A DNA stretch of 43,877 nt, from contig JAFUBM010000009.1 in assembly GCA_017460225.1 (NCBI GenBank), positions 1 through 43,877 of the forward strand, written 5' to 3'. Positions 24,238-43,728 of this stretch are shown piece by piece. Made by a program: the position numbers and the translations under genes. This DNA is from Candidatus Saccharimonadota bacterium (GTDB taxonomy: Bacteria > Patescibacteriota > Saccharimonadia > Saccharimonadales > Saccharimonadaceae). Position 1 is the first letter of the stretch. Every line of letters starts with the position of its first letter. The notes beneath the pieces were generated by a model. The model saw only the letters and a list, made by a program, of their open reading frames with translations. It searched no databases and was not told the DNA's origin.

Positions 24238-24327
24238 GTTTTCTCAATTCAAAAGCTTTAAAAACGTATTTTTTGCTGAAACGCTCAAAAATAGTTTTCA
24301 GAACTTTTGAATTAGAAAACTGTTTTT
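24238..24327 (+). terminator. Long AT-rich inverted repeat, likely ileS terminator
   Basis: Arms 24238-24255 and 24304-24320 are complementary over 17 pairs with one bulged base (GTTTTCT, AATTCAAAAG). They enclose a 48-nt centre with a smaller nested hairpin. A T-rich stretch TGTTTTTTG follows. It could be an AT-rich terminator or the remnant of a small inverted-repeat element. The rest of 24234-24495 is promoter and A-rich leader. Confidence 0.5.
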
Positions 24328-36456: not shown

Positions 36457-37434
36457 ATGGAAGAGTTTGATGTGTTCCAGTGGGCGAACGAGGTGGACGA
36501 GATAAAGAACAATGTCTCGGTTGAACTGTTTTTGTTTAACAAAAATTATACGCCGTATAAGGTGCGATACAGCGATAAGCTGACGAACTCGGTAAAAGCG
36601 ATGTTTATGCAAGAGGCGATTGGATACGTGATTAAGGAAGCTGACAAGGGGTTGGAGTGCCGGACGTACGAGAAGAGCGACGGGGAAGACAAGGTGATCT
36701 ATAAGACAAAACTCGAGAACGTGGGGCGGGCGGAGACGCTATTACACCTGATTGAAAACGAATATAAAGACATCGACTTTTTCTCGGATAATGAATATGA
36801 GTTCAAGAAGGTGAAGGGGATTATCGCGAAGTTTACATACCCCGGCGGAGATGAGGGGACGAAGACGTTTTACATCGCGAAGGGATTGTCCGCGAGCGCG
36901 GCGCTTAAAGGAGCGACGAGCTGGGAGCTAAACGGCGAGAGCTTTGAGCCGTTTTCTGCGGAAGTGGCGATTAAGATGCCGGAAGACAACCAAGTGGCGA
37001 TTGTGGACGGGACGATTGTGGTGTTTAACCAGAGCAAGTTTGAGGCGCTATTCCAATACGATTATAAGTCTCAGGTGATTGCGGAGGCGAAAGCCAGGGA
37101 ATTACAGGAGAAGTATAAACTGAGCTTTGCGGAGGGGCTGACGCTGGACGCATTGCTGCAAGATCGCAAGCCGCTATTGAAAAAGTTGCAGAGCGTGGAC
37201 GTTGCGCAGGCGATGACGCAAGAGCAGATGCTGGATTATTCCGACGAGATGCAGCTTGACCTGATGACGGACGAGGACAAGTCGATTATTATTATGGATG
37301 ACAAAGATCTGACGATGTTTGTGAACCTCTTGAACGAGGATTACTATGTGTCGCCGGTGACGGGATTGCGCTATGAAATCAAGTCGAAGAAGTTGATGGA
37401 AGAAGCCGATGGCGGCGAACCACCTCGTGGATAA
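36457..37434 (+). CDS. DUF4868 / KwaB-like protein
   Basis: A 325-aa soluble protein whose second half matches my recollection of DUF4868, the family of KwaB from the Kiwa phage-defence system. It has a strand-rich segment VAIVDGTIVVFNQSKFEALF (about 184-203), a helical region (about 210-290) and a C-terminal LLNEDYYVSP followed by VTGLRYEIKSKKLM. KwaB acts with the membrane protein KwaA, but there is no KwaA-like four-helix gene beside it. It could be a solitary defence gene or a housekeeping relative. It is followed by a long hairpin repeat whose arm includes its last codons. Confidence 0.6.
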   Translation: MEEFDVFQWANEVDEIKNNVSVELFLFNKNYTPYKVRYSDKLTNSVKAMFMQEAIGYVIKEADKGLECRTYEKSDGEDKVIYKTKLENVGRAETLLHLIENEYKDIDFFSDNEYEFKKVKGIIAKFTYPGGDEGTKTFYIAKGLSASAALKGATSWELNGESFEPFSAEVAIKMPEDNQVAIVDGTIVVFNQSKFEALFQYDYKSQVIAEAKARELQEKYKLSFAEGLTLDALLQDRKPLLKKLQSVDVAQAMTQEQMLDYSDEMQLDLMTDEDKSIIIMDDKDLTMFVNLLNEDYYVSPVTGLRYEIKSKKLMEEADGGEPPRG

Positions 37435-37555
37435 GTAATATTTTGGCGAGCTGCTGCGTTGAAGCCTGCGATACTCAGGAGGCGTACCACTAAGTACGCC
37501 TCCTTCCGTTTCTCAGCTTCGCCTTGCATCTCATCCAAAATATTTACTTATCCAC
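37427..37555 (+). repeat. Long hairpin repeat, copy A
   Basis: Outer arms 37427-37446 and 37535-37555 pair over 20 bp with one bulge; the left arm includes the last codons and stop of the preceding gene. The core is a perfect 11-bp hairpin, AGGAGGCGTAC (37477-37487) with 37494-37504. Inner segments (ATTTTGGCG, CTGCGT, TGCGnTACTC, TAAGTACG, TCCGTT, CATCCAAAAT) are shared with copy B at 42373-42496. Confidence 0.85.
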
Positions 37556-37579
37556 ATTTCTGTGTTGTTTTGTGGAAAA
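37548..37579. other. DnaA-box-like pair
   Basis: TTATCCACA (37548-37556, perfect consensus) and, inverted, TGTGGAAAA (37571-37579, reads TTTTCCACA on the minus strand). The first overlaps the right arm of the hairpin repeat. Two boxes are too few to call an origin. Confidence 0.4.
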
Positions 37580-37597
37580 CTTTGGTTAAAAAAGGGC

Positions 37598-37626
37598 TTG
37601 ATTTTTCTAAATAAACTGGTTATACT
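37598..37626 (+). promoter_or_regulatory. Promoter upstream of structured element
   Basis: TTGATT (37598-37603), 17 nt, TATACT (37621-37626). Predicted start near 37633. It is followed by an A-rich stretch with a GTAGA/TCTAC hairpin and no ORF with a ribosome-binding site. Confidence 0.65.
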
Positions 37627-37690
37627 AAGTGCAGGTAGAAAATAAAATAAACATTAAACATAAAAATCTACTGAAGGTACATTAAAATCA

Positions 37691-37943
37691 GTTTGAGGAC
37701 GGTTAACAAGGAGTTTTGGCGCGCGGTTAAACTTAAGGATACGCGTCACCAAAATCCTCCGTACATTCTAAAACTAACACCTCCCAATTAAAACTCTCAA
37801 CCAATTACACAATAAGTCTCTCAACGGCCATAATATGACTCGAGATTTATCTCAGGAGATTATGGTAGATCTAAAGTGTAAGGGAAAACAAAAATCTTAG
37901 CAAAAACAAACACGCTAAAGTTTCTTGTTAAGCGTCCTTAAAC
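37691..37943 (+). ncRNA. Candidate structured RNA or MITE-like element (253 nt)
   Basis: The ends GTTTGAGGACGGTTAACAAG (37691-37710) and 37924-37943 form a 20-position stem with one mismatch and one G-U pair. Inside are a hairpin at 37711-37760 (TTTTGG/CCAAAA plus GAG/CTC and CGCG/CGCG) and another at 37828-37865 (CCATAAT/ATTATGG with an inner GAGA/TCTC). No supported ORF is present, and the interior is C-rich, unlike genes nearby. With a promoter 58 nt upstream it could be a stable RNA or a leader of rsmH. The long terminal repeats also fit a small transposable remnant, though I see no target duplication. It fills the gap 37435-37977 together with repeat copy A. Confidence 0.5.
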
Positions 37944-37959
37944 TAAAGAAGAAGCAATA

Positions 37960-37968
37960 TGGTATAAT
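37960..37968 (+). promoter_or_regulatory. Extended -10 of rsmH (nearly leaderless)
   Basis: TGG-TATAAT with a 9-nt spacer to ATG 37978; the predicted leader is about 3 nt. Confidence 0.65.
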
Positions 37969-37977
37969 ATATACCGT

Positions 37978-38853
37978 ATGGAAGAACTTCATAAACCTGT
38001 ATTATTATCTGAAGTCCTCGAGGTCCTGGATCCTCGACCGGGTGAGTCGTATTTGGACTTGACGGCAGGATATGGTGGACACGCGAGTAAAGTTTTGGAT
38101 TTGACACGGAATTATAAAGAGTCGGCGCTAGTCGACAGGGATTCTTTTGCGACGGAGTATCTACGCGGGAAGTACAAAAGTGAACCGGTAGAAATCGTAG
38201 AAGGAGATTTTTATAACTCGGTGCTGAAGTTAATTGAGTGTGGAAAGACTTTTGATATGATATTGGCGGATTTTGGAGTGTCTTCCCCGCAACTAGACAG
38301 GGCAGAACGAGGGTTTTCTTTTCTGAGGGAAGGGCCGCTAGATATGAGGATGGACAGGACGCAGGAGCTAACGGCGGAGCGGGTAGTAAATCACTATCCA
38401 GAGAAGAAGCTGGCAGAGATTTTTGAGAAGTACGGAGAAGAAAGACCCGGGAATGCAAAACGGATGGCGCGAGAAATCGTCCAAGCAAGACCGTTTAAGA
38501 CAACGGAGGAGCTGGCGGGATTTATCAAAAGTAAATCTAGATTCTCAAAGACGCATCCGGCAACACGGATTTTCCAGGCGATACGGATCGAAGTGAACGA
38601 CGAGCTAGGGCTGATCAAACAGACCTTGCCGCTGATACTGAAAGTCCTGAAGCCGGGAGGAAGAGTGGCGATTATTACATTCCATAGCTTAGAAGACCGG
38701 CTAGTGAAACAGTATTTTAGGGAAGCGAGCGAGTATGGCGAAGAGTCGGAACTGGAGATTATAACGAAGAGCCCGATAGTGGCGAGTGCAGATGAGGTTG
38801 TTATCAACCCACGCTCCCGATCGGCAAAATTGCGCGCAGCAAAAAGACGCTAA
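37978..38853 (+). CDS. rsmH: 16S rRNA m4C1402 methyltransferase RsmH (MraW)
   Basis: A 291-aa SAM-dependent methyltransferase acting on C1402 of 16S rRNA. It has the N-terminal HKPVLLSEVLEVL, the SAM loop DLTAGYGGHA (about 27-36), ADFGVSSPQLDRAERGFSF and the C-terminal ITFHSLEDRLVKQYF. It heads the division/cell-wall cluster, as is usual, but no mraZ precedes it. The gene has no Shine-Dalgarno site. Confidence 0.96.
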   Translation: MEELHKPVLLSEVLEVLDPRPGESYLDLTAGYGGHASKVLDLTRNYKESALVDRDSFATEYLRGKYKSEPVEIVEGDFYNSVLKLIECGKTFDMILADFGVSSPQLDRAERGFSFLREGPLDMRMDRTQELTAERVVNHYPEKKLAEIFEKYGEERPGNAKRMAREIVQARPFKTTEELAGFIKSKSRFSKTHPATRIFQAIRIEVNDELGLIKQTLPLILKVLKPGGRVAIITFHSLEDRLVKQYFREASEYGEESELEIITKSPIVASADEVVINPRSRSAKLRAAKRR

Positions 38854-38963
38854 ATAACAGGGGTAGGACGCAGAGCTTGTCGGAACTTTTGACCGCGCTG
38901 AAAATTGGCGAAAAAGAGAGTGGAATTGATAAAAATACAAACAAAAAACAAAAAGGAGGCAAT

Positions 38964-39029
38964 ATGCCTAAACAAATCGTAGTCTCGAACAAGAGTCGAG
39001 CGCAAAAAGTAAAAGTTACTTTTTACTAA
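38964..39029 (+). CDS. Possible 21-aa basic small protein or leader peptide
   Basis: A 21-codon ORF with one of the best ribosome-binding sites in the window: AAGGAGG (38953-38959), 4 nt before ATG. The peptide starts MPKQIVVSNKSRAQK and ends VKVTFY. The last codons form a perfect 9-bp palindrome, AAAAAGTAA-AAG-TTACTTTTT (39004-39024). It lies between rsmH and the ftsL-like gene. It may be a real small protein or a leader peptide; I know no homologue. Confidence 0.45.
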   Translation: MPKQIVVSNKSRAQKVKVTFY

Positions 39030-39041
39030 AAACTTGCCGCG

Positions 39042-39071
39042 CCTAGCCACTTTGACCTTTGTGTGGCTGGG
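39042..39071 (+). promoter_or_regulatory. Hairpin between the two small ORFs
   Basis: CCTAGCCAC (39042-39050) pairs with GTGGCTGG-type sequence at 39063-39071 (9 bp including one G-U pair), with a 12-nt loop. There is no T run. It ends about 14 nt before the ribosome-binding site of the second small ORF. Confidence 0.5.
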
Positions 39072-39095
39072 GCGATGAGGAACAGGGGGATAGAC

Positions 39096-39191
39096 ATGGC
39101 CGAAAAGGCCACCACAACTACGGTTGCGGAGTCTAAAAAGAGTGTGTTAAATATATATGACCTTCCCGAGGCGGAGCTAGTTTACTTATAG
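39096..39191 (+). CDS. Possible 31-aa small protein
   Basis: A 31-codon ORF with AGGGGG 6 nt before ATG 39096. The sequence begins MAEKATTTTVAESKKSVLN and ends in an acidic, hydrophobic tail (YDLPEAELVYL). Its final codons overlap the left arm of a 9-bp hairpin (39166-39215), an arrangement like that of attenuation leader peptides. I recognise no family. Confidence 0.45.
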   Translation: MAEKATTTTVAESKKSVLNIYDLPEAELVYL

Positions 39192-39215
39192 CTCTGGCTA
39201 GTCCACCCGCCTCGG
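39166..39215 (+). promoter_or_regulatory. Hairpin overlapping the end of the second small ORF
   Basis: CCGAGGCGG (39166-39174) pairs perfectly with CCGCCTCGG (39207-39215). A ribosome reaching the stop at 39191 would cover the left arm, so translation could control the fold. No T run follows, so it is not a plain terminator. Confidence 0.5.
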
Positions 39216-39221
39216 ACTAAG

Positions 39222-39230
39222 TGATATAAA
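39222..39230 (+). promoter_or_regulatory. Extended -10 of ftsL-like gene
   Basis: TGA-TATAAA; predicted start near 39237, then an A-rich leader with GCGAGG before ATG 39274. Confidence 0.45.
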
Positions 39231-39273
39231 CCAAAAATAAAAACCTAAAACAAAAGCGAGGAATTATTTTCTA

Positions 39274-39591
39274 ATGCGTGAATCTAGTTCGGCTTGGGTC
39301 CGAAATCGCAATATCGTCCGGCATACACCAAAGACTTTGGGGAGTGTATCGCAAAGCGTTATCTTGGGCGTGCTGGTGTTGGTGGTGGGGTTGATTTATG
39401 TCACTCAGGGAACGAAGGCAACGAGCTACGACTATGAACTGTCTAAAGTAGAGAATGATATTGCGAAGCTGGAGGCGGAGAAGGAAGATTTGGCGGTGGA
39501 GCGAGCGAGATTGACCAGCATTGCGCGGAGCGACAGCAACGAAGTGGCGGCAAATATGCAAGTGGGGCAGGTGGCTGGCTACGCGGAATAG
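39274..39591 (+). CDS. ftsL: FtsL/DivIC-like division protein
   Basis: A 105-aa bitopic protein with a polar N-terminal tail, one membrane helix (about 28-46, SVILGVLVLVVGLIYVT) and a coiled coil outside (about 52-85, ELSKVENDIAKLEAEKEDLAVERARL). This topology and the place between rsmH and the transpeptidase gene are typical of FtsL. Sequence identity in this family is always low, so the call rests on topology and context. Confidence 0.75.
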   Translation: MRESSSAWVRNRNIVRHTPKTLGSVSQSVILGVLVLVVGLIYVTQGTKATSYDYELSKVENDIAKLEAEKEDLAVERARLTSIARSDSNEVAANMQVGQVAGYAE

Positions 39592-39598
39592 TTTGTAG

Positions 39599-39604
39599 TA
39601 TAAT
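39599..39604 (+). promoter_or_regulatory. -10 box of transpeptidase gene (nearly leaderless)
   Basis: TATAAT with a 9-nt spacer to ATG 39614; the predicted leader is about 3 nt. Confidence 0.6.
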
Positions 39605-39613
39605 AAACATAAG

Positions 39614-41344
39614 ATGAATAGGATTAAAGTCTTGAAGTTAGGGCTTTACGCGGTCGCGGCAGTGATTTTGGCGCGGCTGTTTTTTGTGCAGATTATACAG
39701 AAGGAGACGTGGGTAGCCAAGGCGGAGGCGCAACATACGCTAGAAAACACGATTAAGGCGAAGCGGGGGGAGATCTACATGATGGACGGGAGCGAGCCGG
39801 TAGTGGTGGTGATGAACGAAAAGGTATATACGGTGATTGTGGACCCGATGGTGGCGGAGGAAGCGGAGCTAAAGGAGGCGGTGTTTAACGAGAATATGAA
39901 AGAGAACTTGGTGGCGAAGCTAGAGGAAGTGCTGAGTGACCGGACGCGGAGATATATGGTTGTGGCCAAGAACGTATCGAGAGAGAATGCGTTGCGGATA
40001 CGCGAGGCGCAACCGAGCGGGGTGTGGCTACAGGAGACGACGAAGCGGGTGTATCCGGAGGGGACGTTGGCGGCGCGGACGCTGGGGTTTGTGAACGCAG
40101 ACGGGGAGGGGCAGTACGGCGTGGAGGGGGCGCTAAACGCGCAGCTGGCAGGGAAGGACGGACTGCTAAAAACGGTGGCGGACGTAAACCAAGTGGCGCT
40201 GTCGATTGGTGATAAGAACGTGAAGATTCCGGCGGAGGACGGGGAGAATGTGGTGTTGACGATTGACCGGAACATCCAGGCGGAAGTGGAGAATATTCTA
40301 CAAAAGAAAATGGACGAATACGGGAAAGACCAGGCGAGTGCGGTGGTGATGAATCCGCGGACGGGGGAGATACTGGCGATGGCGAACCTGCCGAGCTATA
40401 ATCCGGCAGATTATGGCAATGTGGAGAGCGCGAGTCTTTACATCAATCGAGTGACGGAAGACCCGTATGAGCCGGCGAGCGTGTGCAAGGCGTTTACGTT
40501 TGCGACGGGGATTGACCTGGGCGTGATGACGGCAGAGTCGACGTATTATAATGTGGACAAAATCTATATTGATGGGTGGCCGATTGAGAATGCGAGCAAG
40601 AACGGGGCGGGAGTGCGGACGATGCAGTATGCACTAAACTGGTCTTTGAACGTGGGAAGTATCCAGGCGCTGAAGTGGATTGGCGGAGATGCGGAGAACA
40701 TTACGGAGGAGGGGCGGAAGACGTTGTATGATTATTATGTAAACAAGTTTGGGCTGGGGGAGGAAACGGGGATTGAGCTGTATGAGGCAACGGGGTTGAT
40801 TGGCGACCCGGTAGAGGGGGACGGGCGGGATTCGTTGTATGCGAATATGACGTTTGGACAGAATATGCTGGTGACGATGATACAGGTAGCGGCGGGGTAT
40901 TCGGCGATGATAAACGGTGGCGAGTATTATGCGCCAACTATCGTAAAGGGGACTATTGACACGAACGGGGAACTGGTGGAGAAAGAAAAAGCGGGGGCGC
41001 TAAGGCGAGTGGTGTCGGAGGATACGAGCCGGCAGATGCGCGAGATGCTGTGGGGGACGCGGAGCTCGCCGCGGCTACTGGGTATTGACCAGGCGGGCTA
41101 CTTTGTTGGCGGAAAGACGGGGACGGCGCAGGTGATTCGCGACGGGGAGTATGTGATGGACGAAAGCGTGGCGACGTATGTGGGGTTTGGCGGGGCAGAG
41201 GGGGAGATGCCGGAGTATCTGGCGATGGTGCGGATTTGGAAAGACGGGGAAACGACGGACGCACAGAAGATGGCGCTACCGGTGTTTTCTGAGATATCGA
41301 ATTATCTCATCGACTACTTGAAAATTAAACCTAAAGTGGAGTAA
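39614..41344 (+). CDS. ftsI: Class B penicillin-binding protein (FtsI-like transpeptidase)
   Basis: A 576-aa membrane-anchored transpeptidase that crosslinks septal peptidoglycan. It has one N-terminal membrane helix (about 7-27), a dimerisation region with KRGEIYMMDG, and the transpeptidase domain with SVCK (Ser289-Lys292, SxxK), SLN (344-346) and KTGTAQ (501-506). There are no PASTA domains. Placement between ftsL and mraY supports FtsI rather than the elongation PBP2. It works with FtsW at 42517. Confidence 0.92.
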   Translation: MNRIKVLKLGLYAVAAVILARLFFVQIIQKETWVAKAEAQHTLENTIKAKRGEIYMMDGSEPVVVVMNEKVYTVIVDPMVAEEAELKEAVFNENMKENLVAKLEEVLSDRTRRYMVVAKNVSRENALRIREAQPSGVWLQETTKRVYPEGTLAARTLGFVNADGEGQYGVEGALNAQLAGKDGLLKTVADVNQVALSIGDKNVKIPAEDGENVVLTIDRNIQAEVENILQKKMDEYGKDQASAVVMNPRTGEILAMANLPSYNPADYGNVESASLYINRVTEDPYEPASVCKAFTFATGIDLGVMTAESTYYNVDKIYIDGWPIENASKNGAGVRTMQYALNWSLNVGSIQALKWIGGDAENITEEGRKTLYDYYVNKFGLGEETGIELYEATGLIGDPVEGDGRDSLYANMTFGQNMLVTMIQVAAGYSAMINGGEYYAPTIVKGTIDTNGELVEKEKAGALRRVVSEDTSRQMREMLWGTRSSPRLLGIDQAGYFVGGKTGTAQVIRDGEYVMDESVATYVGFGGAEGEMPEYLAMVRIWKDGETTDAQKMALPVFSEISNYLIDYLKIKPKVE

Positions 41345-41347
41345 AAT
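41318..41347 (+). promoter_or_regulatory. Promoter of mraY (leaderless)
   Basis: TTGAAA (41318-41323), 18 nt, TAAAAT (41342-41347), whose first three bases are the stop codon of ftsI. The spacer to ATG 41354 is 6 nt. An AGGAG lies only 2 nt from the ATG, too close for normal Shine-Dalgarno use. Confidence 0.55.
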
Positions 41348-41353
41348 AGGAGA

Positions 41354-42385
41354 ATGTGGAAAGCAGAAATCAACAATGAACTGTTCTATGGATTGATTTT
41401 GACGCTGGCGGGGTTTTTGCTGTCGATGTTTTTGACGCCGATTTATACGCATTTTGCGTATAAGTATAAGTTTTGGAAAAAGCAGAAAAAGGCGACGGCG
41501 CAGGGCGATGCTTTGCCGGTGATGACGAAGCTACACGCGCATAAGTTTAAGCGGAAATTCCCGACGATGGCGGGGATTGTGGGGGTGCTGGCGGTGGCGG
41601 CGGTGACGCTGTTTTGTAATTTTGACCGGGGGCAGACGTGGCTACCGTTGGCGGGATTCCTCGGCGGGGCGATAATTGGGCTGGTGGATGATATGATCAA
41701 CGTCTTTGGCGACGGGCACGGAGCGGCGGGTTTGAGAGCGCCGGTGAAGTTCTGCTTGATTTCTGTGGTGGGGCTAGCCTTGGGCTGGTTCTTTGCGTTT
41801 AAGCTGGGGTGGACGAGCGTGATGATTCCGTTCTTGGGGCCGGTGGAGATTGGGATGGCGGGGATGATCTTGTTGTTTGCGTTTGCGGTAGTGGCGACGA
41901 GTAATGCAGTGAACATTTCTGATGGACTAGACGGGCTGGCCGGAGGGCTGATGATGATGGCGTATGGGGCGTATGGAGTAATTGCGTTGTTCCAGGGGCA
42001 GTGGATGTTGTTTGGGTTTTGTTTGACGGTAGTGGGGTGGCTACTGTCTTATGTGTGGTTTAACGTGCCGCCGGCGCGGTTTATGATGGGAGATACGGGA
42101 AGTTTTGCGCTGGGTGCGGGGCTGGGCGTGGTAGCGATGATGACGAACGCGTTTTTGCTGTTGCCGGTGATTGGAGTACTCTTGGTGGTAGAGGCGGGAA
42201 GCAGCTTGATCCAGATGTTTTCGAAAAAGGTGTTCCACCGAAAAGTGTTTATTTCTGCGCCGATCCATCATCATCTCGAAGCGAAGGGATGGGGCGAGGC
42301 GAAGATTGTGATGAGGTTTTGGGTGTTGGCGGGGATTGCGGCCATTCTCGGAATGTTTTTAGCTAGTGCCGGCGGAATTGTTTAA
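41354..42385 (+). CDS. mraY: Phospho-MurNAc-pentapeptide transferase MraY
   Basis: A 343-aa polytopic membrane enzyme making lipid I on undecaprenyl phosphate. The catalytic segments are GLVDDMINV (DDxxN type), AVNISDGLDGLAGG and APIHHHLEAKGW. About ten membrane helices are visible. It lies between the septal transpeptidase and ftsW, as in canonical clusters, but murD/murF are not here. Its last codons form the left arm of hairpin repeat copy B. Confidence 0.96.
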   Translation: MWKAEINNELFYGLILTLAGFLLSMFLTPIYTHFAYKYKFWKKQKKATAQGDALPVMTKLHAHKFKRKFPTMAGIVGVLAVAAVTLFCNFDRGQTWLPLAGFLGGAIIGLVDDMINVFGDGHGAAGLRAPVKFCLISVVGLALGWFFAFKLGWTSVMIPFLGPVEIGMAGMILLFAFAVVATSNAVNISDGLDGLAGGLMMMAYGAYGVIALFQGQWMLFGFCLTVVGWLLSYVWFNVPPARFMMGDTGSFALGAGLGVVAMMTNAFLLLPVIGVLLVVEAGSSLIQMFSKKVFHRKVFISAPIHHHLEAKGWGEAKIVMRFWVLAGIAAILGMFLASAGGIV

Positions 42386-42496
42386 TTTTGGCGCATTTCT
42401 GCGTCAGCAGGTGCGTTACTCGCTCTCCGTACTTTAAGTACGGTTCGCTCCGTTACTCCTGCTTCCTTGAACTGCATCCAAAATAAAACAATTCCG
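42373..42496 (+). repeat. Long hairpin repeat, copy B
   Basis: Outer arms 42373-42391 and 42478-42496 pair at 18 of 19 positions; the left arm includes the mraY 3' end and stop. The core CCGTACTT-T-AAGTACGG (42427-42443) is perfect, flanked by AGCAGG/CCTGCT. It has the same architecture and shared blocks as copy A (37427-37555), but different outer arms. Its right end touches the ftsW promoter. Confidence 0.85.
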
Positions 42497-42501
42497 GGAT
42501 G

Positions 42502-42510
42502 TGGTATAAT
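42502..42510 (+). promoter_or_regulatory. Extended -10 of ftsW (leaderless)
   Basis: TGG-TATAAT with exactly 6 nt to ATG 42517. Confidence 0.7.
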
Positions 42511-42516
42511 CGTAGT

Positions 42517-43728
42517 ATGAGAAAGCATAAGAGCGATTTGATAATCGGGTTGATGACGCTGGTGCTGTTGATTGCGGGGCTGATTGTGATTTATGCGATT
42601 GGGCCGATGCGGGTGAACTTTATGAATGCGGCGTATGGTAGTGAGCTGAGTGAGAACTACTTTTTTCTGCATCAGCTAGCGAACGTGACGATTTCTGTGG
42701 TGGCGTTTGTGGTGGCGTTTAGGCTGCCGTATGAGAAGTGGAAAAAATACGGGAAGTGGGTGCTTCTGATTGGATTTTTGTTGTGCGGGATTTTGTTTGT
42801 GGCGAGCAAGGCGGGGAGCGGGATTGCGAGGTGCGAGTTGGGGGCGTGTAGGTGGCTAAACCTGGGCGGGGTGGCGAGTCTGCAACCGGCGGAGATGCTG
42901 AAGCTGGGGCTAGTATTATACCTTTCTCAGCTGGCGGCGGAACGAAAGAGGGAGGGGAAGCTCGATACGAGCGATTTTTGGCTGCCGGCGGGGGTAGTGT
43001 CTGTGATTTCTTTGTTGTTTGTGGTGGTGTTGCAGAAAGATTTGGGGACAGGGGTGGTAATAGTGGCGATAATTTTGGCGACGATTTTTGCGAGTGGGGT
43101 GAAGCTGAAGTGGCTGGGGCTGGTGATACTGGCGGTGGGAGTGCTGGGAGCAGGAGCGATAGTGACGAGTCCGCACCGGATGGAGCGGATTGAGACGTTT
43201 TTGTCGGGGGAGGATGCAGATAATTACCACATCGAGAATGCCTTGATTGCGATCGGGACGGGGGGACTGGCTGGAGTGGGGGTAGGGAACAGCGTGCAGG
43301 CGACGGGGTATTTGCCAGAGAGCATTAACGACTCGGTGTTTGCGATTATGGGGGAGACGTTTGGGTTTATTGGGCTGGCGCTAGTGGTGTTGGTGTTTGT
43401 GGTGCTTTTGATGCGGATTTTGAGAGTGGCGGAGCTGGGGGCGGAGGAGGATCAGCGGCTAGTGGCGGTGGGGGTGTTTGCGTGGATAGCGGTGCAGATG
43501 GCAATAAACATTATGGCGATGACGGGGCTAATCCCGCTAACGGGGATTACTTTACCCTTGCTGTCTTACGGCGGGACGAGTATGATGTTTGTGACGTTGG
43601 CGTTGGGGCTGAGTTTGCAGCTTTCGTGCTATACTAGAAGAGAAAAAGATTTAACGAAGAAAAAATTTGCCAACGGACATCTAAAGAAAGGAAGACTTCA
43701 TGAAAGTGCTAGTCGTAGGCGGCGGTAG
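42517..43728 (+). CDS. ftsW: SEDS glycosyltransferase FtsW/RodA
   Basis: A 403-aa polytopic membrane protein that polymerises lipid II together with a class B PBP. Family motifs include WLNLGGVASLQPAEMLKL (about 111-128), LQKDLGTGVVIV with the key Asp, and the C-terminal GLIPLTGITLPLLSYGGTSM. About ten membrane helices are present and the C-terminus is basic. Context (mraY before, murG after) points to FtsW rather than RodA. I start at ATG 42517 because the earlier frame includes the promoter. The end overlaps murG by 29 nt. Confidence 0.93.
   Translation: MRKHKSDLIIGLMTLVLLIAGLIVIYAIGPMRVNFMNAAYGSELSENYFFLHQLANVTISVVAFVVAFRLPYEKWKKYGKWVLLIGFLLCGILFVASKAGSGIARCELGACRWLNLGGVASLQPAEMLKLGLVLYLSQLAAERKREGKLDTSDFWLPAGVVSVISLLFVVVLQKDLGTGVVIVAIILATIFASGVKLKWLGLVILAVGVLGAGAIVTSPHRMERIETFLSGEDADNYHIENALIAIGTGGLAGVGVGNSVQATGYLPESINDSVFAIMGETFGFIGLALVVLVFVVLLMRILRVAELGAEEDQRLVAVGVFAWIAVQMAINIMAMTGLIPLTGITLPLLSYGGTSMMFVTLALGLSLQLSCYTRREKDLTKKKFANGHLKKGRLHESASRRRR

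Follow-up and report, generated by a model that had tools for sequence, protein, structure and literature searches.

A family of small palindromes at stop codons and inside genes of Patescibacteria, with arms that can match host sequence

Introduction

Protein-coding palindromes were previously known from Rickettsia, Wolbachia, and one archaeon, and we know of no mechanism that accounts for them, nor of any enzyme that mobilizes the Rickettsia palindromic elements (RPE). Integron attC sites, which are located at the 3' ends of genes, combine variable stems with conserved unpaired bases. REP palindromes, which are moved by RAYT (Y1) transposases, are likewise mobile, lie between genes, and have conserved unpaired positions. 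RPE are palindromes of ~105 to 146 bp that occur between genes, in frame inside housekeeping coding sequences (CDS), and also in RNA genes (reviewed in PMC2229807). Bacterial MITEs such as Correia, ERIC, and RUP are short elements with terminal inverted repeats and no transposase gene that form long stem-loops (PMC2229807). Template switching has been proposed for the coding palindromes of nematomorph mitochondria (PMC6649704), hairpins are reported to be created and maintained by this process (PMC8794818), and it is also reported to homogenize the arms of inverted repeats (PMC8604942).

Here, we analyze two hairpins in a 43,877-nt stretch of DNA from a Candidatus Saccharimonadota bacterium (this whole stretch is referred to as the window), together with the family to which they belong. 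The family resembles RPE and the protein-coding palindromes of Wolbachia in size (~125 nt) and in lying both between genes and in frame in housekeeping CDS. It differs from RPE in phylum, in its conserved pyrimidine loops and fully covarying stems, in its exact placement at stop codons, and in arms that match host codons; comparing the families by description, we know of no report of such loops with covarying stems, such placement, or host-codon arms for RPE. It shares with MITEs the features listed above; unlike in MITEs, however, its arms differ from copy to copy while the cores are identical. No clear target-site duplication was seen at empty sites that align at only ~75% identity, and a search of three genomes turned up no clear autonomous relative that shares its ends. 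Mobility, intergenic location, and conserved unpaired positions link it to REP palindromes. The nematomorph palindromes and the template-switch-maintained hairpins are similar within-gene inverted repeats whose arms are kept identical, but neither kind forms a mobile family with conserved internal loops. Integron attC sites are alike in stems, unpaired bases, and position at gene ends, whereas the present family has no cassette array and occupies housekeeping loci.

Results

Both hairpins of the window lie on the forward strand, are ~125 nt long, and overlap a stop codon, as checked base by base. Copy 1 (37427 to 37555, both outer arms included) is hosted by a gene for a KwaB-like protein of 325 amino acids (36457 to 37434; PF16162). 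Its left outer arm (37427 to 37446; GTGGATAAGTAATATTTTGG) holds the last codons of this open reading frame (ORF) and its TAA (37432 to 37434), and its right outer arm (37535 to 37555; CCAAAATATTTACTTATCCAC) complements the left arm in inverse orientation, with a single bulge. Copy 2 (42373 to 42496, again with both arms) is hosted by mraY (41354 to 42385; 343 amino acids; PF00953). Its left outer arm (42373 to 42391; CGGAATTGTTTAATTTTGG) consists of the last codons of mraY, among them GGA ATT GTT TAA with the stop codon at 42383 to 42385, followed by TTTTGG, and its right outer arm (42478 to 42496; CCAAAATAAAACAATTCCG) pairs with this gene end at 18 of 19 positions. The original prediction that the hairpin arms copy the 3' end of each host gene is therefore borne out at both loci. 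The folds have z scores of −9.0 (copy 1) and −4.75 (copy 2), and 0 of 200 shuffles were equally stable for either.

Downstream of copy 2 lies ftsW (42499 to 43728, forward strand), whose probable true start is the ATG at 42517, about 20 nt from the end of the hairpin; relatives start near MRKHKS. An extended −10-like sequence, TGnTATAAT, is located between copy 2 and ftsW (42502 to 42510), and a similar sequence is present in 9 of 38 stop-codon copies. The KwaB-like gene, which encodes a Kiwa defense domain, sits between uvrD/pcrA and a cell-wall cluster. Elsewhere in the window, an inverted repeat with 27-nt arms that are 78% complementary (24246 to 24313) is unrelated to the palindromic element.

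Searches with exact patterns returned only the two window copies from the source genome and mostly chance matches from a collection of 84,980 species. Because such patterns were too poor, we used a covariance model (R1), built on the common skeleton of four copies: the two in the window and related copies in two other genomes (G031 and G079). R1 matches copy 1 at 37441 to 37542 (108.8 bits) and copy 2 at 42386 to 42485 (113.5 bits), both of which are among the four seeds, and its E values are rough. The model found five copies, not two, in the source genome, copies in 50 of 99 related genomes (0 to 34 per genome), and copies in 31 of 287 genomes sampled over the phylum, including many families outside the class. 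In two genomes (G198 and G024), the cores are near-identical at unrelated sites. The hairpins are copies of a small non-autonomous mobile palindrome scattered through Patescibacteria. With ~125 nt and up to 34 copies per genome, it has the dispersed, many-copy distribution of a 100- to 150-nt palindrome that is typical of RPE. Rfam gave no match at the gathering score in the window and none relevant at E values up to 1 in seven loci; judged by Rfam and a search of the open-access literature, the family is apparently undescribed so far.

Half-element remnants beside full copies were suspected by eye, of which the profile confirmed only a few. Two pairs of terminal repeats in G198 (C22:1222-1471 and C21:125473-125725) lie ~250 nt apart, twice the usual length, and are possibly composite or longer forms of the element. 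Copies also adjoin the ends of 23S rRNA genes in rRNA operons of several families (L154:1231-1328, L193:7880-7979, L193:13801-13902, L373, L384, and L388).

The placement of the copies is precise. Among 59 unique copies in the window's genus, 31 have the stop codon of an upstream same-strand ORF at −12 to +6 of the model start, where ~1.8 are expected, and almost no such stops fall elsewhere between −200 and +60. Most of the remaining copies sit in frame within a CDS. In other families, stops cluster either at −12 to +6 or at −70 to −45, the latter because a second hairpin module lies between. The hosts of in-frame copies include ileS, argS (with two copies in G017), dnaG, polA, and pyrG, and antisense copies are found inside uvrD/pcrA, der, and typA with the ORF kept open; in-gene antisense copies were seen in G092. 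As with RPE, conserved genes thus carry insertions that leave the reading frame open. The same gene ends are occupied in several genomes. Orthologs of ileS and argS that lack the insert show empty sites, and in other species these sites are occupied by other palindromic families as well; both positions are recurrent insertion hotspots for several families. Placement at stop codons or in frame inside genes identifies the element as a mobile coding palindrome that resembles RPE.

A second in-frame palindromic family, whose ends (CCCTCGTCCAATGT...CTCGGCTAGCGAG) are fixed and not locus-specific, occurs in other species at the same mraY, ileS, and argS sites. It was seen at the mraY-ftsW junction (L205), in ileS (L250), and in argS (L294) of G017, and at G000:C17:48724 and G000:C10:61597. 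Further unrelated inserts, including peptides of the RNDGRDEASR type, occupy the same positions in ileS (L240, L242, L246, L247, L253, and L256) and argS (L297).

The element has a defined anatomy. From the outside, an outer stem of ~18 bp (arms of 18 to 20 bp) is followed by a loop of C against AT, by a stem of 3 + 3 bp with a C.T or T.C mismatch, and by a 6 × 5 loop (CTGCGT/CCTTG). The center holds a variable stem of 5 to 6 bp, dinucleotide stems split by T.T and TC/TCC mismatches, and a GTAC-type hairpin tip. The internal loops are pyrimidine-rich, conserved, and remain mismatched, while the stems vary freely yet stay Watson-Crick. Across 37 distinct copies, 28 of the 29 stem pairs have changed on both sides and 95.5% of cells are paired, with a covariation score of 0.789 versus 0.215 for shuffled copies and ~0.1 for register-shifted controls; the inner stems, whose compensatory differences were first noticed between the two window copies, do covary. 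The window's genus lacks a second hairpin module (CCTGC-stem-AAAGC-stem'-CACTGC) that other families of the order carry within the outer stem, ahead of the element. At L187:9472-9572, L189, L188, and other loci outside the genus, this module sits directly upstream of the element and creates a three-way junction within the outer stem.

The mismatches bear on the molecule in which pairing is maintained. Watson-Crick pairs fill 94% of stem cells in the genus, with 30 G.T and 24 A.C mismatches; elsewhere, the G.T:A.C counts are 61:95 and 19:32, so there is no G.U excess. Selection on an RNA helix should let G.U through much more readily than A.C, yet the counts are about equal, and arm complementarity thus seems to be maintained at the level of DNA.

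Complementarity of the outer arms is specific to each copy. When copies collected by profile were compared, much as the original prediction had proposed, the distal arm matched its own left arm beyond chance: for the 59 unique genus copies, complementarity beyond the shared block averaged 8.56, versus 1.56 with swapped partners, and the copy's own right flank was the unique best partner among 59 in 46. Complementarity stops abruptly ~12 nt past TTTTGG, so that arm length is fixed rather than variable.

Comparison of orthologous loci with and without the element, with orthology judged by synteny and best matches and genomes taken at the species level, separated arms that are host-derived from arms that are brought along. 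At three loci, one of the congeners G155 and G195 has the element and the other has an empty site. The empty sites, which align at only ~75% identity and reveal no clear target-site duplication, are without the arm sequences, and a fresh insertion therefore brings its own arms. Fresh copies outside the class (G155, G195, and G198) are intact units with terminal repeats like TAGGACTTACGT...ACGTAAGTCCTA that often follow a stop codon by 0 to 4 nt or come after an intrinsic terminator; as in MITEs, the terminal inverted repeats travel with the element. In G198, left arms follow the consensus RRACNTACNN rather than host sequence. Copies there with 0 to 5 differences in 75 core positions differ at 2 to 13 of 18 left-arm positions, with the right arm changed to match, which indicates that arms are rewritten in a coordinated way. 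Recent G024 paralogs share ~11 nt of arm on both sides, and their stem changes are one-sided only.

Host-derived left arms occur at mraY and ileS. The left arm of copy 2 is ancestral mraY coding sequence: a close relative (G017) has GGAATCGTTTAATTTT at this position but not the present element. The right arm of copy 2 is missing from relatives whose mraY and ftsW genes abut or overlap (a gap of about −31 to +17 in most). In ileS copies, the left arm encodes the conserved S-A-F-V-L-F, and the right arms carry the counterparts of two synonymous codon differences between species. Conserved host codons reappear as inverse copies in the right arms at mraY, ileS, rpsO, argS, and dnaG. Since the left arm is conserved host sequence in the mraY and ileS copies, the inverse copy in the right arm arose after insertion. 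Between orthologous copies (same-locus mutual best matches), paired and one-sided stem changes number 9:2, 10:2, 6:2, and 5:1, and the arms have decayed in one orthologous old copy (G155/G195). At the mraY-ftsW junction of G031 (L208), TTTTGGCGTTCTTC is followed directly by a TGGTATAAT sequence, possibly what is left of a copy that was deleted from this orthologous site.

No mobilizing enzyme was found in a Y1 transposase check of 99 genomes and a search for autonomous elements in three genomes, in which no inverted pair of element ends was noted around a transposase-sized gene. Y1 transposase genes are present in 15 of the 99 genomes; the ones inspected have their own 20- to 25-nt repeats on either side and not the present element, so mobilization of the REP/RAYT kind is not supported. 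RAYT-like Y1 genes with their own REP palindromes of this length occur in the order at L405, L406, L408, L410, and L412.

Discussion

We favor a reading in which an inserted mobile palindrome is kept and rewritten by DNA-templated correction of its arms, with codon selection fixing the direction, and we put its probability at roughly 55%. The palindrome inserts directly at stop codons in the sense direction or survives in frame inside a gene, and the empty sites show that newly inserted copies carry complementary arms of their own. After insertion, the arms and inner stems may be kept complementary by hairpin-templated correction, that is, by quasi-palindrome template switching in replication. 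A left arm that coincides with host codons would be shielded by purifying selection, and the right arm would then be rewritten as its inverse copy; protected left arms and rewritten right arms would together give the pattern found at the KwaB-like gene and mraY. The paired changes at the same locus and the Watson-Crick-only stems fit such correction between arms. Its main difficulty is the survival of the loops: blind correction should erase mismatched loops, yet these are conserved, and they would need separate selection, for example for mobility. The fixed arm length and the one decayed old copy also count against it, as does the negative outcome of the searches for a mobilizing enzyme. Somewhat short of even odds, in our judgment, is the more general claim that a phylum-wide palindrome of Patescibacteria actively rewrites its distal arm after insertion, so that this arm becomes an inverse copy of internal codons or of the end of the host gene.

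The original prediction had reasoned that an inserted element would not normally match gene ends, and had suggested that a template switch might write out the flanking DNA in inverted form. The match is real, but exact stop-codon placement together with later arm rewriting would explain it in an inserted element. The template switch is partly supported: host-codon right arms and paired orthologous changes make template-directed correction after insertion the best supported of the options, whereas copying of the flank at insertion is refuted for fresh copies by the three empty sites and by the terminal inverted repeats that these copies carry.

The main rival to arm correction is selection of the DNA hairpin as a recombinase substrate. 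The palindrome would again be mobile, but its stems would covary only because a recombinase or transposase requires its DNA hairpin to be perfectly paired, as at attC; template switching would play no part, arms would diverge in active source lineages, and the copies we see would be young. Conserved unpaired pyrimidine loops beside variable stems are indeed reminiscent of single-stranded DNA substrates recognized by structure, selection for a DNA hairpin could also produce Watson-Crick-only pairing, and the arms are of fixed length and travel with the element. We nevertheless consider this reading unlikely, as it leaves unexplained both the right arms that copy conserved host codons in mraY, ileS, rpsO, and dnaG and the paired changes at one locus in orthologs, a setting in which selection for mobility is not expected.

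Sense-strand placement directly at stop codons, deep structural conservation, and occupation of the same gene ends in several genomes could also point to a conserved RNA structure at mRNA 3' ends (a terminator, stability element, or processing site) whose stems are selected on the transcript. The lack of a G.U excess, the in-frame copies and the antisense copies inside genes in G092, the lack of a T-tract, the copies behind existing terminators, and the absence of the element from half of the related genomes make this quite improbable. Selection for a terminator-like stem, which the original prediction had offered as its other explanation, lacks support on the same grounds of T-tract, in-frame copies, and G.U counts. 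An intrinsic terminator is not supported for the window copies, which have no T-tract after the stem; real terminators lie further downstream of some copies and upstream of others.

Still less probable is that, at each insertion, the 3' end of the element snaps back onto the left flank and copies it, making the right arm a fixed-length inverted copy of the target site. This would suit the conserved host sequence in the left arms of several old copies, the constant polarity in element coordinates, the fixed arm length, and arms that both differ between copies with identical cores. For fresh copies, however, it is contradicted by three empty sites that hold neither arm sequence, and it is at odds with the ~11 nt of arm shared on both sides by recent G024 paralogs and with G198 left arms that follow a consensus, not the host. 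Insertion into the loop of a pre-existing hairpin, with both arms old host sequence, would yield locus-specific complementary arms but is highly improbable: there is no room for the right arm where mraY and ftsW abut or overlap in relatives, and the empty sites in ileS, G155, and G195 have no such hairpin, which refutes it at mraY and at the three empty sites.

The family spans Patescibacteria and has a defined architecture, sites within essential genes that are used repeatedly and in frame, and exact placement at stop codons. Its many independent copies and empty orthologs make arm maintenance, by hairpin selection or by template switching, directly testable. The family also explains odd inserts of 30 to 45 residues in the aminoacyl-tRNA synthetases, DnaG, and PolA of Patescibacteria, which can mislead annotation and structural work. 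If arm correction is the true explanation, rewriting of the distal arm would mean that the palindrome takes on the sequence of each host gene, and the family would provide a readout of template switching that nature has repeated many times in bacteria not yet cultured.
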